Positions 87-37,293 of a stretch of 39,129 nucleotides of DNA are shown here, piece after piece. The notes beneath the pieces were generated by a model. It was not told the DNA's origin. It was given only the letters and a program-made list of their open reading frames with translations, and searched no databases. Both the position numbers and the translations under genes were made by a program. How positions within the stretch are numbered: position 1 is the first letter of the stretch; every line of letters begins with the position of its first letter. This DNA is from a virus: positions 1-39,129 of IMG/VR virus record IMGVR_UViG_3300032516_000071, one strand, 5' to 3'.

Positions 87-356
87 ATGGACAGAACAAA
101 GCATAACGCAGCTATTATCACTATCTCCAAAGAAGCGCTACTTGGCTACTTGCAGTTTGAAGGCGGAAAAGTTCACAGTATTAAGTTAGATGATGAGCGT
201 TGGGCTGATAACATTGAAATCGTGGTTGAACATCCTGACCTACCTGAAGTTTTCAATGGGTCCACGCTAATTAAAATAACTCCTGCATATCGGTTTTGGA
301 AACGAGGTAGATTTATTAAAATGCTTAGGGTTGACCCACCAAAGATAAAAACATGA
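87..356 (+). CDS. Hypothetical 89-residue protein upstream of terminase
   Basis: The start is an ATG preceded by a strong GAGGAGGTCGA site, and the gene overlaps the start of the terminase gene (ATGA at 353-356), so the two are probably translationally coupled. The 89-residue product is a compact mixed alpha/beta protein with many charged residues and a basic C-terminal third (FWKRGRFIKMLRVDPPK). I recognise no domain. The position directly before terL is where a DNA-packaging accessory protein would sit, but the sequence itself does not show that role. It does not resemble the small-terminase candidate at 37685. Confidence 0.8.
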   Translation: MDRTKHNAAIITISKEALLGYLQFEGGKVHSIKLDDERWADNIEIVVEHPDLPEVFNGSTLIKITPAYRFWKRGRFIKMLRVDPPKIKT

Positions 357-1792
357 CGACAGACATAGCACCATCACCCGAAATCAGTGATAAAATCCGC
401 TCTAAGGCTAGGGTCTACCCCGATTGGTGGATTGAAACTGTCCTCGGCGGTAAACTCTGGCCAATGCAGATTGCCATTGCTCAGTCGTGCTTCTACTACC
501 CCCGGACTACAGTGAGAAGCTGCGAGGCTATCGGTAAAAGTTATGTTGCGGCTAGAATCGCTCTTGCCTTTTTGTATAACTACCCCCCGGCAACGGTTAT
601 CACTACAGCACCAACTAACCGGCAGGTCGAAGATGTGCTCTGGCGTGAGATTAGACTGGCCTTCTCTCAGGCCAAGTTCCCCCTTGAGGGAAGTCTTACC
701 CGGAAAGCCCTTGAGTTGTCAGGTGACCATTTTGCCGTAGGATTCGCTACAGATGAACCTGAACGGATGCTGGGATACCACAATGTCAATGTTCTGGTCA
801 TCGGCGACGACGCCGCGGGACTCTCTAATGACATCTTTGGGGCTATCGAGAACCCCCTCTCGACCGGGAATACCCATGAACTACTACTTTCTAACCCTAC
901 ACAGTCTGTAGGAGCCTTCAGGGATACTTTTAACTCACCACTCTACAGGAAATACCATATCTCTGCGTTTGATACACCGAACTTGACTACCTTCGGGATT
1001 ACACAAGAAGATATCGAAACCGGGGAATGGCAGAAAAAGTGGAATGGACAGGAATTGCCCTTCCCACAACTGATGAGCCCAGCTAAAGTCGCAGAACGAT
1101 TCACAAACTGGGGCAAGGGGTCTTTCCTCTATACTGTTTTTATCCTCGGTGACTTTCCGGAGGCCGGCGTCAATAACCTCTGCCGCCTTTCCGATATTGA
1201 ATCGTCTATGGCAAGGGAACTCGAACACTCAAGTTATGATAAGGCGCTCAGGATTGCTGCCCTCGATGTGGCTAGATACGGAGACGACGAGTGCTGCTTC
1301 GCAGTCAGACAAGGTAATAAAGTCCTCGATACTATTACATGGGGACACCAGGACTCTAACTATACCATCGGCAGAACGGCCAGACTCATCAAGGAATATA
1401 AACCAGTCCGAACTTATGTCGATGTGGTCGGACTCGGCGCCGGAATATACGATGTGCTGAAAAAGGAAATCGGGGAAGAGTTTAAGGTCATGGAATTTGA
1501 CTCCGGCAAGCCGGCTATGGATACGGAACGATACCTCAACCGGAGAGCGGAAGGATTTTGGGACTTCAATGAGAAACTCAAGGATGGCGAACTCTCTCTA
1601 CCCAAAAATGATAAGATAAAGGCACAGCTTTCCGATATACGATATACTTACAATGTCAGGGGACTGCTCCAGATAGAAAGTAAAGAGGACGCAAAGGCCA
1701 GAGGAAGCAAGTCTCCAGATGTGGCCGATGCCGTTATGATGACCTTCAATCGCAAGAAGGGCGGCACCGGACCGCAGGTGGCTCGCTACTAA
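353..1792 (+). CDS. terL: Phage terminase, large subunit
   Basis: The motor that cuts concatemeric DNA and pumps it into the prohead through the portal. The 479-residue length is normal for the family. The N-terminal ATPase has a Walker A-like loop CEAIGKS (residues 57-63) and a Walker B-like strand NVLVIGDDA (146-154), where DD stands in place of the usual DE. The C-terminal RNase H-like nuclease shows acidic positions in IAALDVARYGDDE (301-313), YVDVVGLGAG (355-364) and SPDVADAVMM (454-463). The portal gene follows after 10 bp, the standard packaging order. A 31-bp stretch at 1490-1520 reappears at the start of the giant gene at 3775. Confidence 0.93.
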   Translation: MTTDIAPSPEISDKIRSKARVYPDWWIETVLGGKLWPMQIAIAQSCFYYPRTTVRSCEAIGKSYVAARIALAFLYNYPPATVITTAPTNRQVEDVLWREIRLAFSQAKFPLEGSLTRKALELSGDHFAVGFATDEPERMLGYHNVNVLVIGDDAAGLSNDIFGAIENPLSTGNTHELLLSNPTQSVGAFRDTFNSPLYRKYHISAFDTPNLTTFGITQEDIETGEWQKKWNGQELPFPQLMSPAKVAERFTNWGKGSFLYTVFILGDFPEAGVNNLCRLSDIESSMARELEHSSYDKALRIAALDVARYGDDECCFAVRQGNKVLDTITWGHQDSNYTIGRTARLIKEYKPVRTYVDVVGLGAGIYDVLKKEIGEEFKVMEFDSGKPAMDTERYLNRRAEGFWDFNEKLKDGELSLPKNDKIKAQLSDIRYTYNVRGLLQIESKEDAKARGSKSPDVADAVMMTFNRKKGGTGPQVARY

Positions 1793-1802
1793 GGAGTGAA
1801 CT

Positions 1803-3581
1803 ATGGCTAAGTATGACAAAAATTACCAGTTAGTCATCGATAAGAAACAGGAAGTCGAGGGTAGCGGACTCCTCAAACGCATGGATGACGACCGCAAACT
1901 GGCTATCCTTGACCCTTACAAGATGATGAACCTTGACGGACAACAGACTCCGGATGTCATCAATGTCACCATGAATGAGGCTGAGGTATTCCTGGAGAAA
2001 TGCAAGTCTATTATGAACGGCGCCAATATGCAGCGTATCGTCTTTGGCAAGGGACTGTCCGATAAAGAGACTACTACCATTGAGGACTTCTATCGGGATA
2101 TTCACTACATGAATGACCTGATGGTGGCCAATGTGCATTTCGTTTCACTGTATGGCTTCTTACTTGAGCAAATACTTATTAGAGGCTCAATGGTTGCCAG
2201 ATGCTTAATGAGAGAAGACGGCGACAAGTTCCTACCGGATATCTCGCCAATCGATACTCGATATTTCTTCTACGAGAATGACTCGACCGGCATGATATGG
2301 GGAGCGGCGGAAGTCTACCGGACTAAGCCACAAATCGAAAGAGACTATGGCATTGTCATCCGGGGCAAAGGAGCAATATGCACAGACTTTTGGGATGATA
2401 TTGTAAATGAGATTTACATTGCAGGCTTGCTCTATAAGGGCGGTTCTCAGACAAATGATGCGGCCAGGTATGCGGAGAGACCGAGAGAGCATGGCCTGGG
2501 ATATCCCCCATTCGTCTATGAGCAGTCCGGGGCCGGTCTGCAAAGCCTTATGGATGTGGGTGGGCTGAAGTATAAGGGGGAAAGTATCTTTGCCTCTAAC
2601 AGGGGTCTTATCCCGGAACTGCATAGGGCGGCCTCAATCTTTCAAACACTTACTGCAATGAGTTTCGAGGGCTCTTACGAATACGAAAGTGACGAGGGCT
2701 CAGAAGCGACGGCTCCCAAAGGGGCTGTCGGTGGTATGAGGAAGACTGTATCAGTCGATAAGGGTGGTGGCTTCCGGCTCATCCCTATCAATGACGTTAA
2801 GAACGCTACCCGTCTATTCTACAATATGCTCGTCGCAGCACTACAACGCGGTAGTCTGTCTAACATCGACTACGGGAATCTCTCCTTCCCACTATCAGCC
2901 GTCGCCATCAAGAACCTTCAGAGTCAACGGGATTCTATCTTCATACCCAGGTTGAACGCAATGGCTCTCTTCTACCGGGCTTCGTCGCAGATGATAAAGA
3001 AGCAGTATGTCCAGGCTGGTTACAAGGTGGCTATCGGTGAAGAGGGATATGAAAGAGAATACTCGGCGGCAGATATCGACAAGAAGTTTTCGACCAAGTA
3101 TGAGTTCCGTGCTACTTCTCCGGAAGTCGATATAGCTAATATGGCTATGGGACAGCAAGCTATGGCCATCGGTGTATCGACACACACAATCTACGAGAAG
3201 ATTCTAAAATTTGATAATCCGACCGGAGAGATAATGAAATCCCGGGCCGAGAAGGGCGAGGCCGGCGATATTGCCCAAACTCTTTATCTGGTAGGTCATC
3301 AGCAGATAGATGACGGCAAGGATATCCTTGCTGAAATGACACTTCAGCAACTAGAAATGGTGCTGAGGCAGAGGGCGATGGGGAATCCTATGGGACTGGC
3401 CCCTCAAAAGGGTGGAGTGGGAGCTGGTTCTTCTATTAAGCCGTTAGTTGACTTGTTTGATAAGCAGGGTGGTGGCCAGCAAGCCCCTGGTGATGAGACA
3501 ATGGAAACACCTGAAGAGAATGACACACGCAGCGAGCGCCGGGAGGCCGTCGTCCGTAGAAACAGAGCGGAGGTTAAATAA
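1803..3581 (+). CDS. Portal protein
   Basis: The dodecameric ring at the head vertex through which DNA enters and leaves, and the docking site for terminase and connector. The product is 592 residues. The call rests on its place directly after terL and on portal-like features: a mid-N-terminal PIDTRYFFYEND motif, helix-rich central sequence (LQSQRDSIFIPRLNAMALFY), and a hydrophilic, Gln/Gly-rich C-terminus ending in Arg/Glu-rich residues. AAGGAGTG precedes the ATG. The larger-than-usual size fits portals of short-tailed phages, although I cannot assign a subfamily. Confidence 0.82.
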   Translation: MAKYDKNYQLVIDKKQEVEGSGLLKRMDDDRKLAILDPYKMMNLDGQQTPDVINVTMNEAEVFLEKCKSIMNGANMQRIVFGKGLSDKETTTIEDFYRDIHYMNDLMVANVHFVSLYGFLLEQILIRGSMVARCLMREDGDKFLPDISPIDTRYFFYENDSTGMIWGAAEVYRTKPQIERDYGIVIRGKGAICTDFWDDIVNEIYIAGLLYKGGSQTNDAARYAERPREHGLGYPPFVYEQSGAGLQSLMDVGGLKYKGESIFASNRGLIPELHRAASIFQTLTAMSFEGSYEYESDEGSEATAPKGAVGGMRKTVSVDKGGGFRLIPINDVKNATRLFYNMLVAALQRGSLSNIDYGNLSFPLSAVAIKNLQSQRDSIFIPRLNAMALFYRASSQMIKKQYVQAGYKVAIGEEGYEREYSAADIDKKFSTKYEFRATSPEVDIANMAMGQQAMAIGVSTHTIYEKILKFDNPTGEIMKSRAEKGEAGDIAQTLYLVGHQQIDDGKDILAEMTLQQLEMVLRQRAMGNPMGLAPQKGGVGAGSSIKPLVDLFDKQGGGQQAPGDETMETPEENDTRSERREAVVRRNRAEVK

Positions 3582-3582
3582 T

Positions 3583-3747
3583 ATGACCAAGCTAAATCAC
3601 GAAGAATTTGACCGCCGGGTAAGAGAGGCCATGACCAGACCGACCAGTAATAATACGAACTTCGCCCCAGGTATACAGCAGATAAGGCAAACAGTAGGAG
3701 CTCGTAAGATGCTCCCGGCTCCACGAAAGCCTTTCAGGACTGTGTAA
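3583..3747 (+). CDS. Hypothetical 54-residue virion-region protein
   Basis: A 54-residue protein starting at ATG 3583, two bases after the portal stop and behind GCGGAGG inside the portal 3' end. A longer in-frame extension to 3448 exists but lies within the portal gene and has no ribosome binding site. The product starts MTKLNHEEFDRRVREAMTR, is basic and hydrophilic, and ends in a Pro/Arg-rich tail (LPAPRKPFRTV). Family unknown. The position between portal and the giant protein suggests a small head or ejection-associated component, which is inference only. Confidence 0.6.
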   Translation: MTKLNHEEFDRRVREAMTRPTSNNTNFAPGIQQIRQTVGARKMLPAPRKPFRTV

Positions 3748-3774
3748 CAGCAACTACCTATGGTAAGGTGATAG

Positions 3775-6700
3775 ATGGAATTTGACTCCGGCCAGCCAGT
3801 AATGGTAACAAATACTAAAAAAATTTATTCCCCTACTCACAAAAGATGGTTTGACGAACCACCTGACGAAACCGTAGAGGAAGAGACTCCTGTTAAGCCT
3901 CTCGTCAATTTCAAGGAACTCTACGAGACTGACAAGGCATGGAGTGATTGGTCTACGCAATACTCTATGACCGGCGAGTTTCCTGATGCACCTGAAGACG
4001 AGGCTTTGATTCCTTATTTTGAACAGTGGAAGGAGACTGTCGAAAAGTTCAAGCTGGAACAACCACCTGTCGAGCCAGTAGAGCCAATAAAGACCGGAGT
4101 TCCCCAGGTAGATGTAACTGATATTGCCAAGCAATACGGGATTATTCCCAGTTACTTCGTTAAACCTGGGCAACTGGCAGATTTAGCACGCCCCCCTGAG
4201 GAAAGGCTCGTTGAGTGGCGTATCCCTTACGAGCAATACCTAACCGCAGAACAGGCGTGGTATTTAGGTTTCTCCAAAACCGATGTGCCAAAGGGTAGTG
4301 TCGTCAAGATGACTCCGATGGCCGAGGGTGAACCGTCTTTCTCTCTGGTTGAAGCACCACAGGTTAAAGTCAAGGCTAATGAGGACTTAGTGAACCGGTT
4401 GCGTTCTGCCTATCCTCTTATGTTTGACCCTGCTCACAGCTACGGATATTCCCCTGATAAGATTCCGGATATGGTTATCGACCAACTGCAAAGACGTATG
4501 ACCGATGACTATAAGGGCTTCATCGATGACCTTTTTACCAGGGTGGGCAAGACTGAGGGCGAGGATATCCTTAGACTCATGGGTGTTACTGAAGAGGGTA
4601 TCTTGCAGACTTTGGACTTCACGGAACAAGAAATACGCCTCAAGACGGCTATCAGTGCTGTATTCCCTGATTTCAAGAGTATCGATGAATTTAATGAATT
4701 GCTCAAGAAAGACCTTCCCCTTTTCATTGAGACTATGCAGACCGGGGGTAGTTCAACTGAGAAACGCCGATTGCTTGAATATATAGGGTTCAAGCCGGAA
4801 AGGATAAACCAGATATTCAGTGTCCAGAGGTTAGTCTTGCCTGTTGATGGAGTTAGGAAGTTGCTAACCATAGATGTTGCTGACCAAAGGGCTTACGATG
4901 ATTTGGGTAAATGGGTTGGCAACTATAATCTGGACACCAAACAATTCACTCCACTGTCTGAGCAAAAGTTACTACAGCCTTCAGTCTATGAAAGATTGGG
5001 TTATACACCACCCCCACCAGTTACCAGTCCTGCCGAAAGACAAGAGCGAGCTAAAGCATTTCAGACGTATCGTAAGGCTGGGGGAAAACTCCTTGCCGAC
5101 CAGTGGGAATTATATGGGATGCCCGCCACGCCAAAGGATGAGCCACGAATACCAACACCGGAAGAACGACAAGCTATTATTGATGAAGAAGTAGTAAAAC
5201 ATACCAATCTGCTTAAAGTTTTTGGTGAGGGTTTGACCAAGTTACCTCAACAAATGGGTGCTTCTATACTATCTGCCATTCAAGGGCAAGGTGGGGCAAG
5301 TGTGGTAGATAAGGATTGGGCTGACCTATTTATAGAAGATGCACGAACAGATTTAGATGCCTTTGCTAAAAAGGTTACAGATAAATATGGTGATACTGGA
5401 CTACCTATAAAAGTCTCTGATATAGCTTACTTACCTCAGAACATGGCTTATTCTTTGACTTCAATGGGCGTAGGTCTTGCAGCTGGTATTCCGATAGGAT
5501 TAGCACCTGTCCCCGGGGCTAGGGCTGCTGCTTGGTTTGCTGGCTCAGCTGCGTCAGGAGCGGTAGCCTATTCAATGACGACTTATCAGATAACGCAAGA
5601 ATACTTGGAATTAAAAAATCAAGAGAGTATTCAAAAGACAGGGAAGGGTATAACTGCTGAAGAAGAAAAGAAATTAAAAGAGGGGTTTGAGGCTAAAGCT
5701 AGAGAATACGGATTATGGGAGGCACTCCCTGAAGCTGTAAGCAACCTTGCCTTCGCTAAGATACTAACTACACCATTGACAAAAGTAGTAGGCAAGTCAA
5801 TAGCTAGTAAGCTATTGGGTAAGTTATTTAGTCTATATGGGGAGGAACTGCTTACAGAAACTATAACCCAAAAAGGGCAATCGGCAATAGAGGTTCAAGC
5901 GGGTTTAAGAGAGGGGAATATAGATTGGGTAGAAGCCTTTAAGGAAGTAGCACCCCAAACATTCCTTCTTACTACTGTGCTTGGAGGGCTAGGACAAACT
6001 GGTATCTCTACAATACGAAGGATTAAAACCTCGCTTACCAATGAAATCGGGGCAGACAATCCGCTTCATAGTGTAATACAGAATAAGCTAGACAATGCTC
6101 AAGGTTCGCTAGGCGGGATAGTTGAAGGGGCTAGTGAATATAAGAATTGGTATGAAAGAGTAGGCTTAACGCCAGAAGCGACAGCCAGAATAAAGGCTAT
6201 GGAAGTCAAGCCAGGGGAGATAGGACTTACTGCTGAAGGCAAGGCTGTACCGCCTAAAGTGGCTGTAACAGCACCTGAAGTAACCGCACCAATACCTACT
6301 ACCCCAGAGGTTAAAGGTGCTAGAACTTATTGGGATACTAACCTTGAAAATAATCCACTTAGAGTAGGGAATAAAGACACTGATGCTGGTGCTTTCTTAG
6401 CAGTCAAGATAGAAAATGCTGGTGATATTCTTAGGGAATATGCTGGCAATAAAGACCAAGCCTATATGAGGGAAAAGTTTGATAAACTCAGTCGTGAACT
6501 TACTAGCCGTGATTGGACAGACCAATTAAGTGTTGGTGAAGTATCACGATTGACAGAGACTAACGCCTTATTAGAGGAGTTACCAATTCCAGATGAAACG
6601 ACCAAAGTTATCAAGGATTTAATTACATCTGTAACTACTAGAAATACAAAAGCAATTAAAGCTAATCTTAATAAATTAGAACCTTTAATATTCCCCAAAC

Positions 6701-9700
6701 TTCCCACCGCCGAAGTTGGTATGCCTGAAGCTGGAAGAAGAATACCTTCAGCAGTCGGTCAGGTAGGTATTACGCAGGAACAGCAAAATGAATATACAAA
6801 ACGAATGACACCATTTCTTAATAAAGCCGATGCCGAGATTAAAAAAGTTAATGATGCTTTTATGACTGGTAAAACTTCACTTGCTGAAAATCAGGCACAG
6901 CGAGATGCCATAAATGCTGAATTGGATAAACAGGCAAATAAAACTAGAACGGAGATGGGATTTCCTGAAGCTATTACCCCTCCAGCAGAAGTAGCACCTT
7001 CGCCATTATTAACTGTTCTTGAAGAAACTACCTTGCCTATGCCTGATAATGTTACCGTCTCAGAGGATAGGGTAGTCCGATCACCTCCACCACCTGAAGT
7101 GCCTCCGCCACATGAACCATCTCCTACTCACCCACCGCAACCAGCACCTATTGAGAATAACAGGCTGGTTATGCCAGACCTTCAACCTGCACAGCAAGTT
7201 GTGGATGTGTATTCCAGACCTGACTTCTGGAGGAATGTCGCTAATTTACCTCTAGTTAAAAAGGCGGTGGGATTATTTAATCCTGCTGCGGTGGCTAATG
7301 ACCCGGCAAGGCAAGCCATAATCCTGCGTGCTACCCTGAAAGATGAGGGGGCACAGAAGGCTCAAGCTGTTATGGCTCACCTGTGGGAAATCGGGACACA
7401 AGATAGGGTATGGGGTAAGACTGATGAAATGGGTTTGTTGAAGAGCGAACCTTTTACTGGCATATCAATAGATGATATTCGCACCAATCCAGCTAAATAC
7501 TCAGCACAGATGACGGCTCAACAAAGGGAATGGATTAAGCGGGCTGACGAAATAGAGAGGGCTAAACTTGATGCTCTCAAACGGAATGAGATTGAGATTA
7601 ACGAACTATCTTTTGAAGATGGTGGAGTATATGCTGGTCGCCGTGTTATGGGAAAATTCAATGACTCTGGCGAATTGATAGAATCAGGGCGTATAGGTAT
7701 TGGAGGGCGTGTCGGGGCTAAAATGCCCTTTGAAAAGACTAGAATCTTCAAAGACGCTTCCGATGGGATAAATGCTGGCTACCGCTATATGAATAGCGAT
7801 GAGGCGCTCTACTACAATACTCTTGGCGCTTACAACAAGATTGCCGATAAGCAGATGGCGGAATGGGTATTGTCTAAGGTTGACTGGCGCACGACTAAAG
7901 CGCCAGAAGCCTTAGTCTTGGAAGCTGAATCGGCTAGGATAAGATTGCGTAAAGCACAGCAATTATTAGGGGCACTCAATAGGGCGGTGCGTGGCGAAAG
8001 GGTGCCAAGCAATACCATAAACTCAATAGCTTCCGTCTATGTTGACCAAGCCGATACTTTGAGAACTCTCATACCTGAATTGCAAAAGCCCTTTCCCGAA
8101 ACGGCGGACACTGTTAGGATTTTGGACGCTGAGGCTAAGACACTTATCTCTCAAGCTAAGCTGGAATACTATCAAGCGGTAAATGAAAGGGCGAGGGCTA
8201 GAGAGGAAGCACAGCGAGTAAAGTATGAAGAAGCGTCTATCGCTCACCCTGCCTTTCAGGGCAAGATATTCACCGGAGAGGAAGCCAAAGAGATTGCGGA
8301 TATACTTACAAAAGGATTACAGCCACAATTTATAGAAGCGCTAGGGGCGGTAAACAAGGTTAATGCTATTGGTAGATTCTTTATGCTGGCTGGCGATGCT
8401 TCTCCAATGGCTATACAACTTCAGTTCCTATCGTTTTACCGACCAGTTGCCTATGCTAAAGCGTGGGGTGGCTTTGTCAGGGCTATGTTTGACCCTGAGT
8501 TTCAATACCGATATTACGCCAACAATAGGGATTTGATTAACAGACATCCTACTCTAATACTTAGCGGTAGAGGGACTGAGTTCACCGAGTTTATGGGCAG
8601 AGGCGGACTAGGTAAAAAGCTAGGCGTTCTGGTTAAACCGCTTGTGTCATTCCAAAAAGCCTTTGAAGGTTGTATCGATGTGGCTGGCATTGAGTTAGCC
8701 AAGTCCCTTGACCATCGTTGTATCAATCCTCAAACCACTATGGAGGTTGACCAGTTTATCAATGAGTTTAGAGGGATGACTTCCAGTGCTAGAATTGGCG
8801 TATCATCTACACAGAGACAGGTGGAGACGGCTGCCTTTCTAGCTCCTAGATATAACAGGGCTATCGCTGGTTACTTATTTGATATTGTTCATGGCGGAGT
8901 CAGAGGTAGTCTAGCCAGAATGTCTCTAGCGCAGGGCTTTGCTGGCATCGCTGCTATGGCGGTGGCAGTCTCTATTGCTCTTGGCGAGGATGATGACGAA
9001 ATCTGGCAGCACTTTGACCCTACCAGTAATAAGTTCTTCACTTGGGATGTTATGGGAGTGAAGATTGGGCCTGGCGGTAAGGTAAGAAGCATTATCAAGG
9101 TTTTTGGGAATATGCTGAGAACTGGGGATGTTGGCAAACCTGCACTTGATTTCTTACGAGGTAATCTTTCACCCGGAGCAAGCACCGCTTTAGACCTTAT
9201 TACTGGCAAGAACTATATTGGCGAGCCTACAAGGGATAATGTGCTGGACTTTACTAAGACCGTTGGGCGCAACTTTATGATGTTGTGGACACAAAACTTT
9301 TTACTGGAAGGTGGCACATTAAAGGAGAAGGCTCTAATTGCTACGGCTGAGTTCTTCGGCTTGCGTGGCTACGATATAAGCGCCAAGAAGGAACTGAAGA
9401 TTAAGGACCTAGAGGAGATGCTAGGGACAGTCATTGGTAAAACTCCGGTATTAAGTAAAAAGAAACCTGACATTTATCAGGGAAACAATATCTACTCCGG
9501 CATTAAGAAACTCTTAGAAACCTCAACCCCCGAAGAAGTATTGGCTGATAAAGGCTATGCTGGTTTGGGGCATATTGTTGTCAAGATGGAGCAATCTGAA
9601 GGCAATACTCTACCTGATATTCGCCTGCAAGACTACAACTTTGATAAGACAAAGGGCGATATTATCAGCGACTATATGAGCCAATGGGCAGAGAGGCAAA

Positions 9701-11757
9701 GAATAATTGATGCTGGTGAGCGGGCTAAATATACTAGAGTCAGGATTGTTGAGGGCAAAGAGGAACGCACCGAGTTCAAGGGGCTGGCAGCCTTAAATGC
9801 TCATAAGCAAGATTACCCCAATGCTGAACGAGGTAATTTAACGAGACGGCAAAGGGAACTTTTACTAGGATATAACGCTGCTACTGATAAGAAGCAGTTT
9901 ATTAAAGACAATCCAGATATAAGTATAAATCCAAAAACCGAATGGCTTAAAGCACATCCGAAAGAAAACGCCGAGTTTGCTATGTTCGGACAAGCCAGTA
10001 TCCTCACCAAAGAAGCCTACAATATATTTAAGGGACTCTTAAAGGAATGGGACTGGCCGGATGCTGCCATACCTGAAATGACTTTACCGCCTGAGACTTC
10101 TATTTCTACTCACTTTGCCTATGAAGAAATGGTCAGCAAGGGGACTCATACCAGCGTTGAGGCGGACCTGCTGTTACTCAAAGACCATTTGGCTGCTATT
10201 GATGCTGCTGAAAAACTTGTTGGTAGAAAACTCACGGATGCGGAGGAGGCTAAAGTCGTAGACTATGCTAAGTGGGCGGATTTGAAATTATCCGATAAGT
10301 CACTGGAATATCTACAGATGAGGGTAGATAACTCCGAACTCTACGCCAAGATGAAAGCCATAAAGGAAGATGATACCCTTGATGACAAGATAAAGGATAA
10401 GGATGGGTTGACAGCAAAAGATAGAGCTTATGCCGAAGTCAGGGCCACCAAGGTAGGCACTGAGACATTTCACGACATAGAACGCAGAGTAGACGCCATG
10501 AATCAAGGGACAAGGACAACTCCGATTGCTCCTGAAATCGTGGATGCCTATGTTGGGCATATGCAGATAGTTGACACAACAAGCGGTTTGAGTGCTGAGG
10601 CAAAACTGAACCGCTACGATAATCCTGCCCTCAATGACTTCTTGATGAATGAGGACTATTGGGGAAAGCAGAAAGCCGAATCTCTGGATGAGGATAAGGC
10701 ATATCTTGATAATTACCTAGTCCCCCGATGGCGGATAGAGGTCAATCCTGATTATAAGAAAAAGGATATTGAATACAAAGCTATCAAGGATCCCAATGAG
10801 GCAGAACAAGATAGATTAAGGGCGGAATGGTTAGCTCAACCTGAGAACGCTCAATATAGGACAGATAAACGCAAGAAGGAAGCCTACGAGTTATCTAATC
10901 CCGATACTGGCGTAAGGTTGCCAGTTGCATTAGTCGATACCTACGTTGCCTTCAATGAGATACCTCAAAAGGGTAAAAGGCAAGAGCGGTTTGTAGTAGA
11001 CAATCCTGCTTTTGCCAAAGCGATGTTCGATATCAACGGCAAGGACATTTACAAAACCAGACCTGAAGATGTGCCTTCGGTGGAATACGACAATATCTAT
11101 GACCAGAATAAACAGAACTTTGACTTGATAGATTCGTTTAAGGACGCTAATGATAAAACGAACTACAAGGATAATACAGTCAAAGACCCTGTAACTGGCA
11201 GGACGGCTAGGGAGCAGGCTGTCTATGACTTACGCTTTGATGGGAGTGGCAAGTATAACGAGTTTGGCTTGGCTGAGATTCGGAGGAACGGCTACGAAAA
11301 GTTTGTCCCGGAGCAGCACATTCAGTCGTATGTCGGTTACTATAAAATCATTGGTGAAGGCAAACCTAAGAACTGGAAACTCAATACCGGCACTGACCTG
11401 TGGTATGACGACGACTGGTATATGTGGGAGCACAAAGACTTCTACCAAGAGGTCTATATGAATCCTAAGTATTGGGACAAGCCTCATGAGAAATGGGACT
11501 TCATTAAAGTTCCCACTAGGGAAGTCTTTAATAAATACTTGGAATATCTGGCTATTGACTCACGGCTCGGTAAAGCCAGAGAAGATTACCGCGCTCATAA
11601 TAAAGACCTTGATGCTTGGGGTGTGATAGCCTTCGATTGGGTTCCTATCAGTGAGAAAAAGAGGAAAGAAGCCTTAACGCCTTATGAGAAATTCATTGAG
11701 GGATGGACTACAAAAGGCGGGGAAATAGAGGAAAAACTGGCTAAATTAAGGGAGTAA
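3775..11757 (+). CDS. Giant 2660-residue polyvalent-type virion protein
   Basis: One uninterrupted 7983-bp frame between portal and scaffold, the slot where some phages encode proteins packaged in the head and ejected with the DNA. Approximate layout: residues 1-470 hydrophilic helical; 556-602 a glycine/alanine-rich hydrophobic stretch (MGVGLAAGIPIGLAPVPGA) that could insert in a membrane; 1102-1126 a Pro-rich linker (PPPPEVPPPHEP); 1540-1830 a conserved-looking helical block (GDASPMAIQLQFLSFYRP; GFAGIAAMAVAVSIALGED) resembling the large polyvalent protein associated domains of phages and conjugative elements; 1830-2660 charged, aromatic-rich helices. I see no protease, nuclease, polymerase or lytic motif with confidence. 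The first codons copy a stretch of terL. The polyvalent assignment is from memory of the family, not a profile match. Confidence 0.72.
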   Translation: MEFDSGQPVMVTNTKKIYSPTHKRWFDEPPDETVEEETPVKPLVNFKELYETDKAWSDWSTQYSMTGEFPDAPEDEALIPYFEQWKETVEKFKLEQPPVEPVEPIKTGVPQVDVTDIAKQYGIIPSYFVKPGQLADLARPPEERLVEWRIPYEQYLTAEQAWYLGFSKTDVPKGSVVKMTPMAEGEPSFSLVEAPQVKVKANEDLVNRLRSAYPLMFDPAHSYGYSPDKIPDMVIDQLQRRMTDDYKGFIDDLFTRVGKTEGEDILRLMGVTEEGILQTLDFTEQEIRLKTAISAVFPDFKSIDEFNELLKKDLPLFIETMQTGGSSTEKRRLLEYIGFKPERINQIFSVQRLVLPVDGVRKLLTIDVADQRAYDDLGKWVGNYNLDTKQFTPLSEQKLLQPSVYERLGYTPPPPVTSPAERQERAKAFQTYRKAGGKLLADQWELYGMPATPKDEPRIPTPEERQAIIDEEVVKHTNLLKVFGEGLTKLPQQMGASILSAIQGQGGASVVDKDWADLFIEDARTDLDAFAKKVTDKYGDTGLPIKVSDIAYLPQNMAYSLTSMGVGLAAGIPIGLAPVPGARAAAWFAGSAASGAVAYSMTTYQITQEYLELKNQESIQKTGKGITAEEEKKLKEGFEAKAREYGLWEALPEAVSNLAFAKILTTPLTKVVGKSIASKLLGKLFSLYGEELLTETITQKGQSAIEVQAGLREGNIDWVEAFKEVAPQTFLLTTVLGGLGQTGISTIRRIKTSLTNEIGADNPLHSVIQNKLDNAQGSLGGIVEGASEYKNWYERVGLTPEATARIKAMEVKPGEIGLTAEGKAVPPKVAVTAPEVTAPIPTTPEVKGARTYWDTNLENNPLRVGNKDTDAGAFLAVKIENAGDILREYAGNKDQAYMREKFDKLSRELTSRDWTDQLSVGEVSRLTETNALLEELPIPDETTKVIKDLITSVTTRNTKAIKANLNKLEPLIFPKLPTAEVGMPEAGRRIPSAVGQVGITQEQQNEYTKRMTPFLNKADAEIKKVNDAFMTGKTSLAENQAQRDAINAELDKQANKTRTEMGFPEAITPPAEVAPSPLLTVLEETTLPMPDNVTVSEDRVVRSPPPPEVPPPHEPSPTHPPQPAPIENNRLVMPDLQPAQQVVDVYSRPDFWRNVANLPLVKKAVGLFNPAAVANDPARQAIILRATLKDEGAQKAQAVMAHLWEIGTQDRVWGKTDEMGLLKSEPFTGISIDDIRTNPAKYSAQMTAQQREWIKRADEIERAKLDALKRNEIEINELSFEDGGVYAGRRVMGKFNDSGELIESGRIGIGGRVGAKMPFEKTRIFKDASDGINAGYRYMNSDEALYYNTLGAYNKIADKQMAEWVLSKVDWRTTKAPEALVLEAESARIRLRKAQQLLGALNRAVRGERVPSNTINSIASVYVDQADTLRTLIPELQKPFPETADTVRILDAEAKTLISQAKLEYYQAVNERARAREEAQRVKYEEASIAHPAFQGKIFTGEEAKEIADILTKGLQPQFIEALGAVNKVNAIGRFFMLAGDASPMAIQLQFLSFYRPVAYAKAWGGFVRAMFDPEFQYRYYANNRDLINRHPTLILSGRGTEFTEFMGRGGLGKKLGVLVKPLVSFQKAFEGCIDVAGIELAKSLDHRCINPQTTMEVDQFINEFRGMTSSARIGVSSTQRQVETAAFLAPRYNRAIAGYLFDIVHGGVRGSLARMSLAQGFAGIAAMAVAVSIALGEDDDEIWQHFDPTSNKFFTWDVMGVKIGPGGKVRSIIKVFGNMLRTGDVGKPALDFLRGNLSPGASTALDLITGKNYIGEPTRDNVLDFTKTVGRNFMMLWTQNFLLEGGTLKEKALIATAEFFGLRGYDISAKKELKIKDLEEMLGTVIGKTPVLSKKKPDIYQGNNIYSGIKKLLETSTPEEVLADKGYAGLGHIVVKMEQSEGNTLPDIRLQDYNFDKTKGDIISDYMSQWAERQRIIDAGERAKYTRVRIVEGKEERTEFKGLAALNAHKQDYPNAERGNLTRRQRELLLGYNAATDKKQFIKDNPDISINPKTEWLKAHPKENAEFAMFGQASILTKEAYNIFKGLLKEWDWPDAAIPEMTLPPETSISTHFAYEEMVSKGTHTSVEADLLLLKDHLAAIDAAEKLVGRKLTDAEEAKVVDYAKWADLKLSDKSLEYLQMRVDNSELYAKMKAIKEDDTLDDKIKDKDGLTAKDRAYAEVRATKVGTETFHDIERRVDAMNQGTRTTPIAPEIVDAYVGHMQIVDTTSGLSAEAKLNRYDNPALNDFLMNEDYWGKQKAESLDEDKAYLDNYLVPRWRIEVNPDYKKKDIEYKAIKDPNEAEQDRLRAEWLAQPENAQYRTDKRKKEAYELSNPDTGVRLPVALVDTYVAFNEIPQKGKRQERFVVDNPAFAKAMFDINGKDIYKTRPEDVPSVEYDNIYDQNKQNFDLIDSFKDANDKTNYKDNTVKDPVTGRTAREQAVYDLRFDGSGKYNEFGLAEIRRNGYEKFVPEQHIQSYVGYYKIIGEGKPKNWKLNTGTDLWYDDDWYMWEHKDFYQEVYMNPKYWDKPHEKWDFIKVPTREVFNKYLEYLAIDSRLGKAREDYRAHNKDLDAWGVIAFDWVPISEKKRKEALTPYEKFIEGWTTKGGEIEEKLAKLRE

Positions 11758-11806
11758 ACTTGCAAGTTGCAAGAAAATATATTACTCTAATAGGGAGGTA
11801 AGCTCA

Positions 11807-12547
11807 ATGGTTATGGACAAAACTGGTAAAGCAAAGGACGGAGGGAAGGCACCCCTTGGACAAAATCTTCAGGAAGGGTCTGACCAAACTTCTACTGCTG
11901 AACAGTTGACTTCATCGATTGAGGAAGGCAAAGCGTATGCTGGTGATGTGGTCAAAAAGTTGGTGCTGGATGCTCTTTCGGCAGATGGCAGAGAACAAAA
12001 AAGCCGGGCTGAGGCAGCCGAAGCAAGTTTGAGGGTGATAACTGATGAACACCAAAACCTGAAGACGCAATTTAATACTGTGTCCAGTCAGGTATCAGAA
12101 CTCCTGAGAGCTAAAATGGATGCTGAAGCTGATGCAGTCAAGGATGACCCGGTAGCATTGGGTTCACTAAGAGTCCGGCAATCTAATACTGCCGAGAGAT
12201 TAAGGCTTGAAGGCTACGATGCTCAGGTCAAATCAAGGGAAACCAAGTTCAATGAAGAAAAGGCTTCCTTTGCCAAGAAAGAGGCTTCTCTAAATATCAA
12301 GTTGTCAGCAATGGCAGCCGGTATCGATGAGAAGACCTTAGCAGACCTTGTGCCTGATGGCAATGCGGAGCGATTGGCTCGAGCTGCTGCTATTCTAAAG
12401 CAGAGCGGCAGTAAGCCAGCCGAAACAGAACCGGGGAAAGCCAAGCCAGCTGGACTAACCAATAAACCTGCTTCCGTTTTGTCTAGTGGTGGGGATTCAA
12501 AGAGCGTCTCAGAGAAGATGCTCGAAAACGCAAAAGGTAAAAAATAA
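11807..12547 (+). CDS. Capsid scaffolding protein
   Basis: Predicted internal scaffold that guides assembly of the prohead shell and leaves before packaging. The product has 246 residues, is very rich in Ala, Glu, Lys and Gln, and is strongly helical with a coiled-coil-like middle (about 60-180). A Gly/Pro/Lys-rich tail ends in VSEKMLENAKGKK, typical of scaffolds whose basic C-terminus touches the coat protein. GGGAGGTAAGCTCA places the start at ATG 11807 rather than ATG 11813. The gene directly precedes the major capsid gene, which supports the assignment. Confidence 0.75.
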   Translation: MVMDKTGKAKDGGKAPLGQNLQEGSDQTSTAEQLTSSIEEGKAYAGDVVKKLVLDALSADGREQKSRAEAAEASLRVITDEHQNLKTQFNTVSSQVSELLRAKMDAEADAVKDDPVALGSLRVRQSNTAERLRLEGYDAQVKSRETKFNEEKASFAKKEASLNIKLSAMAAGIDEKTLADLVPDGNAERLARAAAILKQSGSKPAETEPGKAKPAGLTNKPASVLSSGGDSKSVSEKMLENAKGKK

Positions 12548-12568
12548 AATAAAGGGAGGTAAAGCAAA

Positions 12569-13627
12569 GTGGCTTTATCAGGTGGTTATTACAGTACACT
12601 AGCAGAAGTGCTAAAAGCAACGACTCCCACGCTTATCCCTGGCGTGGTGGACGAGAACTATAAGAGAGGAAACCCAGTTGATATAATCGGGTTTGTCCAG
12701 GCCAATCATACCGGCGAATATATCCGATGGCTTCGTGAATCAGCGAACCTTGAGGGTGCAGTTGCCGATATTGGCCAGGGCGGTTCCACGATATTCAGCG
12801 AGGGTGCTACTTTCGATGCCCAGACAGCCGTTCTCCGTATCTGTTATCTGATGACTAAGCTGGATAAGTTTGACAATGCTATCTGGCAGACTGTCAACGA
12901 TTATGAGCGGATGGCTCTCGAAGGCATGATGAGGGATGTCACTAAGAAGCTCGGCAAGAAGATTATCTACGACGACTATACCTACGATGGCACTGGTCTG
13001 TCGATGGATGGTCTTCATGCTTGGGCTGCGGTAAACTGGGGGCAGGACTGGGATATAGACGAGGGCGAAGGTGCATTGGCACTGGAGCATATGCGTGTTA
13101 TCAGTGATGAACTGAAGCATGGCTTCGACTTCTGGCTGATGCCTTTCTGTCTGGCTCGTCAAATCGACCGGGTATACCGGGAACTTGGTCTGGCCTCACT
13201 AATGGCGACAACGGCTGGTGCTCTTGGCTTGATTCAATACGGCATCAATGAAGCTGGCGGACGGACGCTCATGTTCGACAACAAGCCCATTATCCGCTCT
13301 GACTTCATGCTGGCTGAACAGGTCAACTCAGGTCAGGGGACTACCAGTGCCAGTGCGAGACTGCCTTATGCTTCCGGCACTAAGCAATACTCTGTCTTCG
13401 CAATCAAGCTGGGGGCGACGACTCTAGGGGAGATTGACCCCGGCGTTAAAGTAGCGTTTGGTAAGACCGAAAATGACGGAGAGTTTTTCAACCTCGAATA
13501 CTTCGATAAACTCGAAGGCTATATCGGTAAGGCGATGCGTCTTGCTGCTTATACGAACCTAATCGTTGGCAGTAAGTATGCGGTAGGTCGAATCACCGAC
13601 ATTACCAATGCTGCACCGACAGCTTAA
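12569..13627 (+). CDS. Major capsid protein
   Basis: The 352-residue shell subunit, predicted to have the HK97 fold. Evidence is position (right after the scaffold), length, and composition: a helix with alternating charge (TVNDYERMALEGMMRDVTKK), then beta-rich sequence and a compact C-terminus containing EIDPGVKVAFGK. The start is a GTG at 12569 behind the strong GGGAGGTAAAGCAAA site, fitting a very highly translated gene. A nearly identical site (GGGAGGTAAAGAAAA) leads the next gene, so the two are probably made in similar amounts. I cannot place the exact capsid family. Confidence 0.8.
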   Translation: MALSGGYYSTLAEVLKATTPTLIPGVVDENYKRGNPVDIIGFVQANHTGEYIRWLRESANLEGAVADIGQGGSTIFSEGATFDAQTAVLRICYLMTKLDKFDNAIWQTVNDYERMALEGMMRDVTKKLGKKIIYDDYTYDGTGLSMDGLHAWAAVNWGQDWDIDEGEGALALEHMRVISDELKHGFDFWLMPFCLARQIDRVYRELGLASLMATTAGALGLIQYGINEAGGRTLMFDNKPIIRSDFMLAEQVNSGQGTTSASARLPYASGTKQYSVFAIKLGATTLGEIDPGVKVAFGKTENDGEFFNLEYFDKLEGYIGKAMRLAAYTNLIVGSKYAVGRITDITNAAPTA

Positions 13628-13642
13628 GGGAGGTAAAGAAAA

Positions 13643-14449
13643 TTGAACATACAACAGACTCTACGACTGGAGAATGGTGGAACAATCTGGTTGCCACCTA
13701 GCCCAAATTTTCCCAATACGAACATCCCTGACTTGAGCAAGACGGATAGCGCCCAGCAGTATGACATAGGTTGTGCCTACACTTATAACGGTAAAGCATA
13801 TTACTATGCCTATGTTACTGCTGCTGTTGAGGGTGGTATGGCAGCCTGCAAATCGTATAAGCAAGAGGTTTCATATCAGCTTATCGGCGCTGCGGCTGAC
13901 CAATATGCTACCAGCATTACCATTACTGTCGGTGCGACTGATGGTATCGCTGCTGGTGGTGTTGTTGCGAAAGACTATCTGAAGGGTGGCAGTGTCCAAG
14001 TCTTCACAGGAACGACTACTCAGTTCACTAGAGGCATCATCTCTAATGCCGCTGTCGCTGCTAATGGTGGCACCTGTGTTCTTGAACTAGATGGTGCTAT
14101 CCCGGCTGCCTTAACTACCTCAATGTATGCAGAAGCTACATCATCTCCTTGGTCTGCTGTGCTTGATTCTACCGCAGCGTGGATGCCAAAAGTCGGACTG
14201 GCGACTTGCTACGCTGCCGCCAGTAAGTATGTGTGGCTACAGACATGGGGGCAGTGCTGGGTAACTTCTCAAGCTAACATCGGCACTGCTGGCTACCATC
14301 ATGCCATATTCAAGCACGATGGTTCAATAGAAAAAATTACCACCGTGGACTTGAACCATTCCGACCAGTATGCTGGTTGGACTTTCAGTTGGGGTGCTGG
14401 TGGTGCTCAGGCAGCTCCGTTTGTCTTCCTGATGATTGCTCATCCGTAA
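13643..14449 (+). CDS. Putative head decoration or minor capsid protein
   Basis: A 268-residue protein started by TTG 13643 behind GGGAGGTAAAGAAAA. It is rich in Ala, Gly, Thr, Tyr and Trp and predicted to be mostly beta strand, with no charged coiled coil. Its place directly after the major capsid gene, with the same type of ribosome binding site, suggests an abundant virion protein such as a shell-decorating or head-stabilising protein. Aromatic motifs include YTYNGKAYYYAYV near residue 50 and YVWLQTWGQCWV near 195. Family not recognised. A perfect 10-bp hairpin lies just after the stop. Confidence 0.65.
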   Translation: MNIQQTLRLENGGTIWLPPSPNFPNTNIPDLSKTDSAQQYDIGCAYTYNGKAYYYAYVTAAVEGGMAACKSYKQEVSYQLIGAAADQYATSITITVGATDGIAAGGVVAKDYLKGGSVQVFTGTTTQFTRGIISNAAVAANGGTCVLELDGAIPAALTTSMYAEATSSPWSAVLDSTAAWMPKVGLATCYAAASKYVWLQTWGQCWVTSQANIGTAGYHHAIFKHDGSIEKITTVDLNHSDQYAGWTFSWGAGGAQAAPFVFLMIAHP

Positions 14450-15549: not shown

Positions 15550-16389
15550 ATGGCTAGTAAAAAGTCTGAGATAAGGACTTCTGTTCGAGATATTCTACGT
15601 GATGAATTTGTGGAAGGTGTCGATTTGGAGTGGGAAGACGATGAGTTAGACCGGCTTATTGCCTTAACGCTCGGTGAAATCGAACAGAAGATGCCTAATG
15701 AGGTCAAAGTTACGGTTTTTGATGCCCTCAGCACAGTGGCTACGGAACTATCAGCATCGGCTACTTCCTTAGTCGTGGCTTCTGATGACAGTTTCCCGAC
15801 CACTTTCCCTTTCTACATCACGATTGAGGATGAGGTTCTTTCGGTGACTGCGACGCCAGGAGCGGATACCTTTACTGTTAGCCGGGCTCAGAAAGGCTCG
15901 ACGGCTGCTATTCATGTCGTTGGCAAGTCTGTAGGTTTGACCATAGTTACTGCATCAAACTCTAAGGAAATTGACCTCAGTAATATCGGCAATCTTATCA
16001 GGGTATGGCGGTGCGAATACCGGATAGCCAGACCGAGTTATAACCCAAAGCAATTCAGGGAAGTTGAAAGATTTGGTGATACCTTGACAATGCTAATGAA
16101 CATAGTGCCATCTGATAAAGAGGAAGTCCATCTATGGTGCGACAAGAAGCATACCCTCACTGATGCCTCTTCTACTCTCAAGCCAGACCATGAGGTAGTT
16201 TTAACTCAGGGAGTGGCTGCTCGAGCCGCTATGAACCGGGGCAGGGAATTGCTCAATGCCCTGAATGTCGGGGGTGTCAATGTGGGGCCGAGAATGACTG
16301 AGTGGGGAAGAGAACAACTTGGACTGTATAGGGCGGCACTTCGCCATCATGCGGTAAAGCGTCCATCGGAAACCTATCCTAGAGACTAG
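15550..16389 (+). CDS. Connector/adaptor-like protein with an inserted beta domain
   Basis: A 279-residue protein. Residues 1-55 are helical and acidic (VDLEWEDDELDRLIALTLGE), as seen in head-tail adaptors that dock under the portal. Residues 62-135 form a separate beta module (FPTTFPFYITIEDEVLSVT, then TFTVSRAQKGS) that recurs in the next gene. The remainder is mixed and ends in a basic helix (REQLGLYRAALRHHAVKRP). AAGGAGTTGAACT precedes the ATG. Adaptor is the best guess from order and the N-terminal helices, but a tail-attachment protein is equally possible. Confidence 0.6.
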   Translation: MASKKSEIRTSVRDILRDEFVEGVDLEWEDDELDRLIALTLGEIEQKMPNEVKVTVFDALSTVATELSASATSLVVASDDSFPTTFPFYITIEDEVLSVTATPGADTFTVSRAQKGSTAAIHVVGKSVGLTIVTASNSKEIDLSNIGNLIRVWRCEYRIARPSYNPKQFREVERFGDTLTMLMNIVPSDKEEVHLWCDKKHTLTDASSTLKPDHEVVLTQGVAARAAMNRGRELLNALNVGGVNVGPRMTEWGREQLGLYRAALRHHAVKRPSETYPRD

Positions 16390-35025: not shown

Positions 35026-35175
35026 TCATGATGACTTGCGGGCTAGTTCCTGTGCCTCTTTTACTTTCTGGTAACAGTTATCACAAAAATCTCTAAACTT
35101 CTCTACTCCTCTAGTTATAACTGGAACTCTCCAAGCGTGTTTAATATCCTTTTTCTTACAATTCCAGCACTTCAT
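35026..35175 (-). CDS. 49-residue zinc-ribbon protein B
   Basis: Starts at ATG 35175, overlapping the stop of the pentapeptide gene (ATGA), behind AAGGAGATAAACAA. CWNCKKKDIKHAWR and CDNCYQKV form a four-Cys zinc ribbon. The C-terminus KEAQELARKS is identical in sequence, and its coding DNA nearly so, to the end of the mini gene at 36271-36450. The domain in front is different, so two distinct zinc modules share one tail. Confidence 0.68.
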   Translation of the reverse strand: MKCWNCKKKDIKHAWRVPVITRGVEKFRDFCDNCYQKVKEAQELARKSS

Positions 35176-35855
35176 TTGTTTATCTCCTTCCAGTATTCTT
35201 GCCATTCCGCAAAGCCTGCCTCAGCCAGCACCTCAAAGATATGGGGCATGACATCAGAGAACCGCTTTTTAATCGCGTTCCAGCAGAGTCTTTTGATTGT
35301 GATTTGAGCAATGGCACTCCATTCAGTATCTAAAAATACTGACACCGCCTGCCGCCTTACAACTTCCTGAAATATATCATGCAACTCTCGGTAGTTTTTG
35401 CTGCCAATCAGGTCGCTGCAACTCAGGTTGCTGCCAATCAGGTCGCTGTAACGCAGGTCGCTGTAACTCAGGTTGCCGTAACTCAGGTTGCCGTAACTCA
35501 GGTTGCCGTAACGCAGGTTGCTGCAACTCAGGTCGCTGTAACTCAGGTTGCTGTAACGCAGGTCGCTGCAACTCAGGTTGCTGTAACGCAGGTCGCTGCA
35601 ACTCAGGTCGCTGCCACTCAGGTTGCTGCCAATCAGGTCGCTGTAACTCAGGTCGCTGCCACTCAGGTTGCTGTAACTCAGGTCGCTGTAACTCAGGTCG
35701 CTGCCAATCAGGTTGCTGTAACTCAGGTCGCTGTAACTCAGGTCGCTGTAACGCAGGTCGCTGCCACGATTTTTCTCAAGGCACTCCTTTATTGACTTGT
35801 AATCCCCACTAATAATGATTTGAGATGTCCACCTGTTTTTGATTTCGATGTGCAT
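35172..35855 (-). CDS. Pentapeptide-repeat protein
   Basis: A 227-residue protein. Residues 30-153 are about 24 consecutive five-residue units of the type S[D/N]LxY/xG/xC (for example SDLSYSDLSYSNLIGSDL), the pattern of a right-handed quadrilateral beta-helix. Ser replaces the usual Ala at the position two before the central Leu. Some members (Qnr, MfpA) mimic DNA and protect gyrase, others act in stress or toxin roles; the function here is unknown. Residues 155-227 are a helical C-terminal domain (LHDIFQEVVRRQAVSVFLDT). Preceded by TAAGGAGACAAAA. The DNA is a 15-bp tandem repeat. Confidence 0.9.
   Translation of the reverse strand: MHIEIKNRWTSQIIISGDYKSIKECLEKNRGSDLRYSDLSYSDLSYSNLIGSDLSYSDLSYSNLSGSDLSYSDLIGSNLSGSDLSCSDLRYSNLSCSDLRYSNLSYSDLSCSNLRYGNLSYGNLSYGNLSYSDLRYSDLIGSNLSCSDLIGSKNYRELHDIFQEVVRRQAVSVFLDTEWSAIAQITIKRLCWNAIKKRFSDVMPHIFEVLAEAGFAEWQEYWKEINK
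35400..35767 (-). repeat. 15-bp tandem repeat array encoding the pentapeptides
   Basis: About 24 near-identical units such as CTGTAACTCAGGTCG, read on the opposite strand as S-D/N-L-x-x. Variation is limited to a few positions (CTGTAAC, CTGCAAC, CTGCCAA, CTGCCAC and GTCG/GTTG). The unit length preserves the frame, so copies can be gained or lost without a frameshift. Confidence 0.95.
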
Positions 35856-36462: not shown

Positions 36463-37293
36463 TTATACTACTACCAGCGCCGTTGTAAATTCCGGTGCCG
36501 GTGCCGGTGCTTTCTCAATAGTCCTAACTATTCTTTCCGCCGTCTTGATGATACGGCTTCCGCTATTGCCTAGCTTCTCGCGGTCGCCGTGCCATTGTCC
36601 AATGTAGAACTTGCTACGCTGGTTTTCAATGCCCAGGGTAGCACATACAATATAGCTGACTGCTTCCGCCTCGAGCTCCTGGTTATCCCTTCCGCCACGC
36701 TCTGAGTTATCCTTGTCCAGGTGTTTCAATTCACAATGAGCCAGTTCGTGAAAGTAAGTTGCGATGATGCTGGCCCGGTTACCCCGGTCGCAAAGAGTGA
36801 TTGTCTTCCCATCGGTCGAGCCGTTTTCTATACCATTAGAATAGGTAACCGGGTAGTCAAAGAGTCCGGCTATTTCGCCCAGGTTAAGGGCATCGCCGCC
36901 GGTCACTTTGTCTGAGTGTCCCAGTTCCAGGGGTTCGCCGTCTGTCTGACTTACATCAAAGACTGATACTGCCCGGAACCGTGTAACGATAACCTCTTCA
37001 TCTTCCCCGGTTTCGGTTTCTTTTGTCTTCTTAAAGAACATCGGCGCCAGTATTGATATACCGTGCTCGCCCTTCTTGACATATCGCTTTTTGTCAAGCC
37101 AAGTATGATAGCCGGCACATAGCGAGGCGTCTGGCTTCTGAAAGAATATCAGCAGCATATTGCCAAAACTGTAAGAATGGAAGCCATTACTCCATTGCTT
37201 TGAGAATAGGTCTAGTTTCTCTGTGTCTGTCACCACTTGGTTGGCCAGCTCCCCCATGTGCCGGGTAAGCTCCTGCGTCTTCGTGTTGTCCAT
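36463..37293 (-). CDS. ardC: ArdC-like antirestriction protein
   Basis: A 276-residue protein that is the first gene of the leftward operon. Residues 1-130 resemble the ArdC N-terminal single-strand-DNA-binding domain (FSKQWSNGFHSYSFGNMLLI; YHTWLDKKRYVKKGEHGISI). Residues 165-225 carry a metallopeptidase-like zinc site: HELAH (182-186) and a downstream Glu in NQELEAEAVSYIV (204-216). ArdC-type proteins coat incoming single-stranded DNA and protect it from host restriction after transfer. A GAAGGAGGAAAC site precedes ATG 37293. The promoter at 37342 contains the operator shared with the early operon. Confidence 0.85.
   Translation of the reverse strand: MDNTKTQELTRHMGELANQVVTDTEKLDLFSKQWSNGFHSYSFGNMLLIFFQKPDASLCAGYHTWLDKKRYVKKGEHGISILAPMFFKKTKETETGEDEEVIVTRFRAVSVFDVSQTDGEPLELGHSDKVTGGDALNLGEIAGLFDYPVTYSNGIENGSTDGKTITLCDRGNRASIIATYFHELAHCELKHLDKDNSERGGRDNQELEAEAVSYIVCATLGIENQRSKFYIGQWHGDREKLGNSGSRIIKTAERIVRTIEKAPAPAPEFTTALVVV

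Follow-up and report, generated by a model that had tools for sequence, protein, structure and literature searches.

What does a tailed phage do with a single protein of 2660 residues that is encoded among its packaging and head genes? The window analyzed here, i.e., the whole IMG/VR virus record of 39,129 bp, carries one open reading frame (hereafter the giant) that takes up 20.4% of its length. A preliminary description made from the letters alone had pointed to a frame filling about a fifth of the genome in the portal-scaffold slot, and both points hold: 2660 codons are open, and the frame is flanked by a portal-type and a scaffold-type gene, both assigned by position. We consider it probable that the giant is a large internal protein that is packaged and ejected (a pilot protein) by a tailed phage, which is probably short-tailed and probably infects Dehalococcoidia. 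The genes of the slot are as follows.

353..1792, + strand: terminase large subunit (TerL; phrog_2, E 8e-26)
1803..3581, + strand: portal-type protein of 592 aa, named by position, which defines the phage groups sharing the N-terminal domain of the giant
3775..11757, + strand: giant open reading frame, 2660 aa, ATG start, uninterrupted; relatives occupy the same slot
11807..12547, + strand: scaffold-type protein of 246 aa, named by position
12569..13627, + strand: major capsid protein (MCP; phrog_212, E 6e-6), for which relatives were found

The gene order thus runs from TerL via the portal-type gene, the giant and the scaffold-type gene to MCP, and the giant's slot lies within the packaging/head module in every relative that spans it. 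Location in a virion-structural module is a feature of ejection proteins, and the giant is found between portal-type and scaffold-type genes both here and in the relatives. The labels of the 592-aa and 246-aa genes are position-based, as neither product matches a family, and the 592-aa protein has no relatives in annotated phages. Assignment of the latter as a portal by similarity was tried and dropped: its family aligns neither to T7 gp8 nor to the annotated portal of phage ctf1B273.

Elsewhere in the window, an ArdC-type antirestriction gene at 36463-37293 (- strand) shows an ArdcN domain (PF08401, E 6e-11) together with a sub-threshold MPTase-PolyVal match (PF18818, E 9e-5), so that polyvalent-type domains do occur in other parts of this genome. 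An adaptor-like protein encoded at 15550-16389 (+ strand) contains an inserted domain (residues ~52-139) matching tail-fibre PHROGs, which is present in this phage and its sisters L015 and L016 and absent in the homologues from L018, L021 and L023. Three separate stretches of a 227-aa protein encoded at 35172-35855 (- strand) match phrog_7713, annotated in PHROGs as function unknown, and the same protein matches the end of the 990-position phrog_923 (unknown function).

A scan of viral contigs with the whole giant gave no match, and whole-protein scans against Pfam and PHROGs were likewise empty; relatives were seen only by other routes, namely by searching viral contigs first with the TerL, MCP and 592-aa sequences and then with the middle pieces of the giant. 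The sister phages resemble this phage in TerL (69-82% identity), MCP (61-87%) and the portal-type protein (61-74%). Two of the sister contigs are circular, one of 41.3 kb whose ends overlap by 141 bases and one of 41.5 kb with an overlap of 127 bases, and each sister contig spanning the slot carries a giant open reading frame in it, of 2518 aa in L011 and 3012 aa in L019. The searches with middle pieces added four more phages, L021 to L024, which possess different capsid proteins. Since the giant is kept at the protein level in its relatives, with 42-66% identity over 950-1600 residues, a chance frame can be ruled out: the frame at 3775-11757 is a real gene.

Comparison among these relatives divides the giant into the following parts, all encoded on the + strand.

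3775..4977, + strand: N-terminal domain, residues 1-401, proposed as a virion/portal-docking head (blastp/hhalign)
4978..6090, + strand: swapped block, residues 402-772, with the Gly-rich hydrophobic segment; 62-66% identical to the giants of L021, L022 and L024
5440..5580, + strand: hydrophobic Gly-rich segment, residues 556-602, first candidate membrane segment (peak 561-579, Kyte-Doolittle 1.57)
6091..6972, + strand: second variable cassette, residues 773-1066, with the lowest GC3 (0.22-0.27)
6718..6735, + strand: GMPEAG motif, residues 982-987, at the edge of the variable cassette
6973..7179, + strand: Pro-rich linker, residues 1067-1135, 29% Pro
7180..8742, + strand: helical block, residues 1136-1656, within a stretch shared with L023 and L024 and unrelated to the sisters
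8743..9654, + strand: core block, residues 1657-1960, common to all relatives and, via the sisters, to the 1582-aa giant of ctf1B273
8920..8991, + strand: hydrophobic helix, residues 1716-1739, second candidate membrane segment (Kyte-Doolittle 1.96)
9655..11754, + strand: C-terminal region, residues 1961-2660, conserved, charged and helical

The giant agrees with those of its sisters at its two ends, with ~50% identity over residues 27-401 and ~51% over 2380-2660 (about 45-56% at the very end), and more weakly over 1657-2380. Residues 402-1656 do not match the sister giants, including those of sisters with capsids 86% identical to that of this phage, although the sisters match one another in their middle at 52-75%. 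The same picture was obtained when profiles were compared segment by segment with the sister clade (hhalign with reversed controls): E values were 7e-96 for the N-terminal domain, 4e-7 for the core and 6e-142 for the C-terminal region, and nothing in the middle (402-1656) rose above the reversed-sequence control. Matches to the middle came instead from other phages: the giants of L021 and L022 match residues 385-772 at 62-64% identity (64-66% over ~365 residues in a second comparison), and those of L023 and L024 match residues 1067-2642 at 65-66%, L024 matching 509-772 in addition. The L024 giant lacks residues 773-1066 and has an unlike stretch of 374 aa in their place. The phages that gave these matches to the middle have portals ~31% identical or unrelated capsids. 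Moreover, GC3 is 0.49 in the N-terminal domain, 0.22-0.31 in residues 402-1066 and 0.40-0.51 thereafter, falling from 0.49 to 0.29 at residue ~402 (p 6e-11) and recovering after 1066 (p 1e-12). Because of the mismatch with the sisters, the cross-phage matches and the GC3 shift, the middle looks like a block exchanged through intragenic recombination, residues 773-1066 being an additional cassette, and the replacement is recent-looking.

Nine giants contain the motif GMPEAG a single time each, at the cassette edge, as compared to 0.08 occurrences expected in shuffles of the set; the motif may serve in processing, as a linker or as an anchor for recombination. A block common to the relatives was considered as a GNAT domain and rejected, as the alignment showed the downstream GMPEAG linker instead. 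Self-BLAST of the C-terminal region detected no internal repeats; a hint of degenerate ones comes from profile matches that are offset between relatives.

The N-terminal domain follows a different rule from the rest of the protein, as revealed by comparison of the eight phages for which both the giant and the portal-type gene are available. Among this phage, L019, L005, L002 and L008 (W, B, D, E and G, respectively), whose portals are 62-76% identical, all ten of ten pairs have the N-terminal domain in common (29-65% identity); none of the pairs between these five and L021, L022 or L030 (portals 27-32% identical) does. L021 and L022, with portals 67% identical, have an N-terminal domain type of their own in common, and residues 1-401 were found only in phages with portals more than 60% identical. 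The remainder of the giant disregards the portal grouping: it matches L021 and L022 in spite of portals at 27-32%, and of the available part of the L008 giant only the N-terminal domain matches, with a portal 64% identical. As the N-terminal domain types track the portal families, we infer that this domain attaches to the portal or to an adjacent component of the head.

A protein tied to the portal might also be a MuF-type minor head protein, i.e., portal-associated with a long C-terminal extension or toxin, and not an ejected conduit. MuF genes, such as that of gp7 in SPP1, classically follow the portal gene, as the giant gene does here, and the coupling of the N-terminal domain to the portal family would suit such a protein. 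Yet no MuF domain was matched in Pfam at E values up to 1, the giant is far longer than SPP1 gp7, and its blocks recur in the giants of LASTA and ctf1B273 with other gene orders; we regard a MuF-type protein as very unlikely, and an ejected giant as the better reading.

The preliminary description had listed a hydrophobic Gly-rich segment at 556-602, a Pro-rich hinge at 1102-1126, a hydrophobic helix in the block 1540-1830 and a long charged C-terminal half, and each of these was recovered: the first with its peak at 561-579, the second within the Pro-rich stretch 1067-1135, the third at 1716-1739, and the last as about 34% charged residues over 1961-2660. The number of hydrophobic segments by itself is at the level of chance, as a shuffled giant gives on average 1.8 segments of equal strength, and for this reason the argument rests on their correspondence in relatives. 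Among the relatives compared across the core, a hydrophobic stretch recurs where this giant has 1716-1739, even at an overall identity as low as about 23%, and most of them have at least one hydrophobic stretch early in the middle block, including those of unrelated sequence there. Ejection proteins are mosaic with conserved membrane segments (PMC8954989), and the giant presents two hydrophobic segments at corresponding places as candidate membrane segments. This finding bears on two further explanations. If the giant were a structural protein of the head core (portal-core or DNA-spooling) and stayed behind in the virion, the portal-linked N-terminal domain and the conserved charged C-terminal region would be accounted for; the corresponding hydrophobic segments and the effector-like fusions described below for relatives would be hard to explain, and we give this possibility little weight. 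A tape measure encoded at an unusual position by a long-tailed phage would be similar in length, helix content and hydrophobic segments, and no other gene of the record was recognised as one. However, tail-tube, sheath and tail-completion proteins had no match in the scanned genes of this record, and the giant gene precedes the scaffold and capsid genes. Furthermore, a length ruler would not be expected to contain a large Pro-rich linker or to have whole blocks replaced, and the giants of the relatives range in length from about 2190 to 3012 aa. A tape measure is hence the least probable of the explanations weighed here. The phage is probably short-tailed, given that tail-tube and tape-measure genes were not found.

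Searches for a recognisable activity in the giant had a uniform outcome. No match was obtained in Pfam (including LPD, and MuF at E up to 1) or PHROGs, and the PDB sequence search with both alignments yielded only insignificant matches (e.g., ferrochelatase, E 0.1). AlphaFold2 models of residues 1-1066 (9 sequences) and 1067-2230 (12 sequences) were of low confidence (mean pLDDT 56 and 51), with an alpha/beta N-terminal domain of moderate confidence and a helical model at residues ~1905-2220 (pLDDT ~80); structure prediction in windows, proposed in the preliminary description, thus gave models, and the fold search with them (Foldseek, VIA) returned generic helical bundles and no fold match. 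Comparison with T7 gp15 and gp16, N4 gp50 and gp51, and P1 DarA, DarB and DdrB (single-sequence targets) gave nothing above reversed controls; the alignment to N4 gp50 reached a probability of 6% over 48 residues, not above background. Residues 1540-1830 had been said to resemble large polyvalent-protein-associated domains (LPD), a likeness that profile searches of the segments did not bear out, as no Pfam LPD matched; a search of twelve records for LPD38 was empty and its positive control was silent too, and ART-PolyVal was absent from eleven records.

Homology was detected to other phage giants. Residues 483-751 correspond to residues 351-598 of the DarB-like giant of Klebsiella phage LASTA (YP_010078816.1; hhalign probability 98%), which also shows tblastn matches with this protein and its relatives (E 2e-5 to 1e-14). 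The 1582-aa giant of ctf1B273 (MW202497, UOF78006.1) matches the core via residues 1442-1670 of the L011 giant (hhalign probability 97%) and is encoded after a 'phage stabilization' gene and before an amidase gene. Additionally, the L022 giant matches gp32 of Cobetia phage Carin1, encoded after nozzle and lysozyme genes. Judged by gene order, the homologous genes of LASTA, ctf1B273 and Carin1 occupy positions of internal virion proteins, and in LASTA and ctf1B273 the homologous blocks belong to giants with differing gene orders. The LASTA protein is 4433 aa long, is encoded after tail and internal virion genes and has one block in common with the giant described here; the ctf1B273 protein shares the homologous core block and the location in a virion module, and differs in being shorter, in its gene order and in the amidase nearby.

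These matches raise the question whether the giant is an injected counter-defence effector of the DarB/polyvalent type, packaged and ejected and acting in the cytosol, its hydrophobic segments being ordinary helices. Besides the LASTA block and a middle block swapped like arms-race cargo, two relatives point in this direction: the L019 giant runs in frame past the usual end into a class I methyltransferase (residues 2850-2944, PF08241, E 5e-23; L019:20300-20972), a fusion known from one contig, and the L021 giant shows a weak GNAT match at residues 1274-1311, just before GMPEAG (PF13508, E 8e-4, below cut-off). A resemblance by eye to ADP-ribosyltransferases was noted in the L024 cassette (residues ~305-440, L024:915-1322); no search backed it, and the assignment was dropped. 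However, scans of the giant itself with Pfam and PHROGs found no enzyme, and these together with PDB sequence and fold searches found no polymerase, lysozyme/lysin, peptidase or LPD domain in this copy. The LASTA match lies in the hydrophobic block and not in a methylase or helicase, the P1 DarB pair of adenine methylase and SF2 helicase is without a match, and P1 DarB does not align. Moreover, what all relatives have in common is not the variable block but the core, including its hydrophobic helix, and the C-terminal region. On balance, a cytosolic effector appears rather unlikely, although clearly less so than a MuF-type, head-retained or tape-measure protein.

A polyvalent protein, by definition, unites several domains of disparate kinds in a single chain (Iyer et al., 2017; PMC5512222). 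Linkage to a portal-terminase packaging module is shared by the giant; two or more domains of disparate activity were found in no part of this copy, the fused methyltransferase and the sub-threshold GNAT belonging to relatives, and a polyvalent signature (LPD, MPTase-PolyVal, ART-PolyVal or similar) was lacking from its Pfam scan. Because such a set of domains was not found in this copy, it would work like a polyvalent protein at most. The multi-function ejected protein of the preliminary description therefore survives in part: the slot, the portal-tracking N-terminal domain, the swappable blocks, the blocks in common with the DarB-like and ctf1B273 giants and the enzyme-like relatives are in line with it, whereas several jobs in one chain were not borne out for this copy, and an ejected mosaic giant is the best and a fairly likely reading.

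With respect to the host, a TerL search of bacterial genomes gave nothing. By contrast with this, an alignment of the C-terminal region searched against 84,980 species genomes yielded three hits, all of them Dehalococcoidia MAGs, and within Dehalococcoidia 4 of 393 genomes had a match. In the first MAG (contig L029), a giant lies beside a scaffold-type gene 58% identical to that of this phage. The second hit is on L030/G012:C13, a contig of 36 kb that carries a portal-type gene together with a giant spanning the contig ends as in a circular genome. In the third (L031/L039, DUEE01000026.1, ~480-13760), a lone giant of 2212 aa is found beside a phage integrase, with no capsid genes next to it, on an 84-kb contig that also carries genes for methionyl-tRNA synthetase, 3-phosphoglycerate dehydrogenase, an RsmI-type methylase and nucleoside diphosphate kinase. 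Because these housekeeping genes and the integrase are on the same contig, this element looks like a provirus remnant in a chromosome. The hosts are probably Dehalococcoidia (Chloroflexota), an assignment that rests on MAG contigs, for which incompleteness and mis-binning are possible. Dehalococcoidia are devoid of peptidoglycan synthesis (PMC4959651; for related Chloroflexi, PMC3971608). In line with this, no PBP transpeptidase was found in the three Dehalococcoidia MAGs, while the family was found in 10 of 14 controls, and searches of this phage and three sisters for Amidase_2, SLT and Phage_lysozyme domains were negative. If the host belongs to Dehalococcoidia, the missing lysin needs no hidden activity in the giant.

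Taking T7 gp16 and the ejected giant N4 gp50 as models, we propose the following sequence of events. The N-terminal ~400 residues would dock the giant on the inner face of its own portal during procapsid assembly, and the giant would be packed with the DNA. On infection, it would exit the head, unfolded or molten, ahead of or with the DNA, whereupon the segments at ~560-580 and ~1716-1739 may become embedded in the single cytoplasmic membrane, where they would build or line a conduit for the DNA, the helical C-terminal region serving as a putative hub on or around the incoming DNA. The middle (~402-1656) would be an exchangeable cargo block swapped by phages, bearing enzyme-like domains in some relatives. 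T7 gp16, the analogue studied in most detail, has two predicted membrane regions with a DNA-binding part between them (PMC8954989), and N4 gp50 is an ejected giant (PMC12633501). The likeness to T7 and P22 gp16 lies in large size, a mostly helical (predicted) structure, two candidate membrane regions far apart and mosaic evolution. The giant differs in having twice the size of T7 gp16, no transglycosylase, no recognised gp14 and gp15 partners, no detectable sequence homology and a portal-scaffold location; the ejection genes of T7 and P22 lie after the tail genes. With N4 gp50 it shares a very long single chain, which makes an ejected giant of a short-tailed phage a working analogy, and it differs in lacking a polymerase domain and homology above background.

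We tentatively suggest, as a possibility distinctly less likely than ejection as such, that in phages of Dehalococcoidia, bacteria without peptidoglycan, one giant mosaic chain replaces the three-protein ejectosome and its muralytic enzyme, with a portal-matched head, a membrane core and a cargo bay swapped between phages without common capsid genes. If true, a single protein would make up the ejection machine for such bacteria. What is known of ejection proteins comes mostly from phages whose hosts have an outer membrane and peptidoglycan, and a family tied to bacteria that lack peptidoglycan synthesis, in phages without a detectable lysin, would offer a natural test of which parts of such proteins are needed for the membrane and which for the wall. 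The lock between N-terminal domain and portal, as opposed to free exchange elsewhere, makes a directly testable prediction on how the giant is loaded and marks the site of the cargo block. Finally, candidate phages and a provirus-like remnant are hereby supplied for Dehalococcoidia, a class that includes important dehalogenating organisms.
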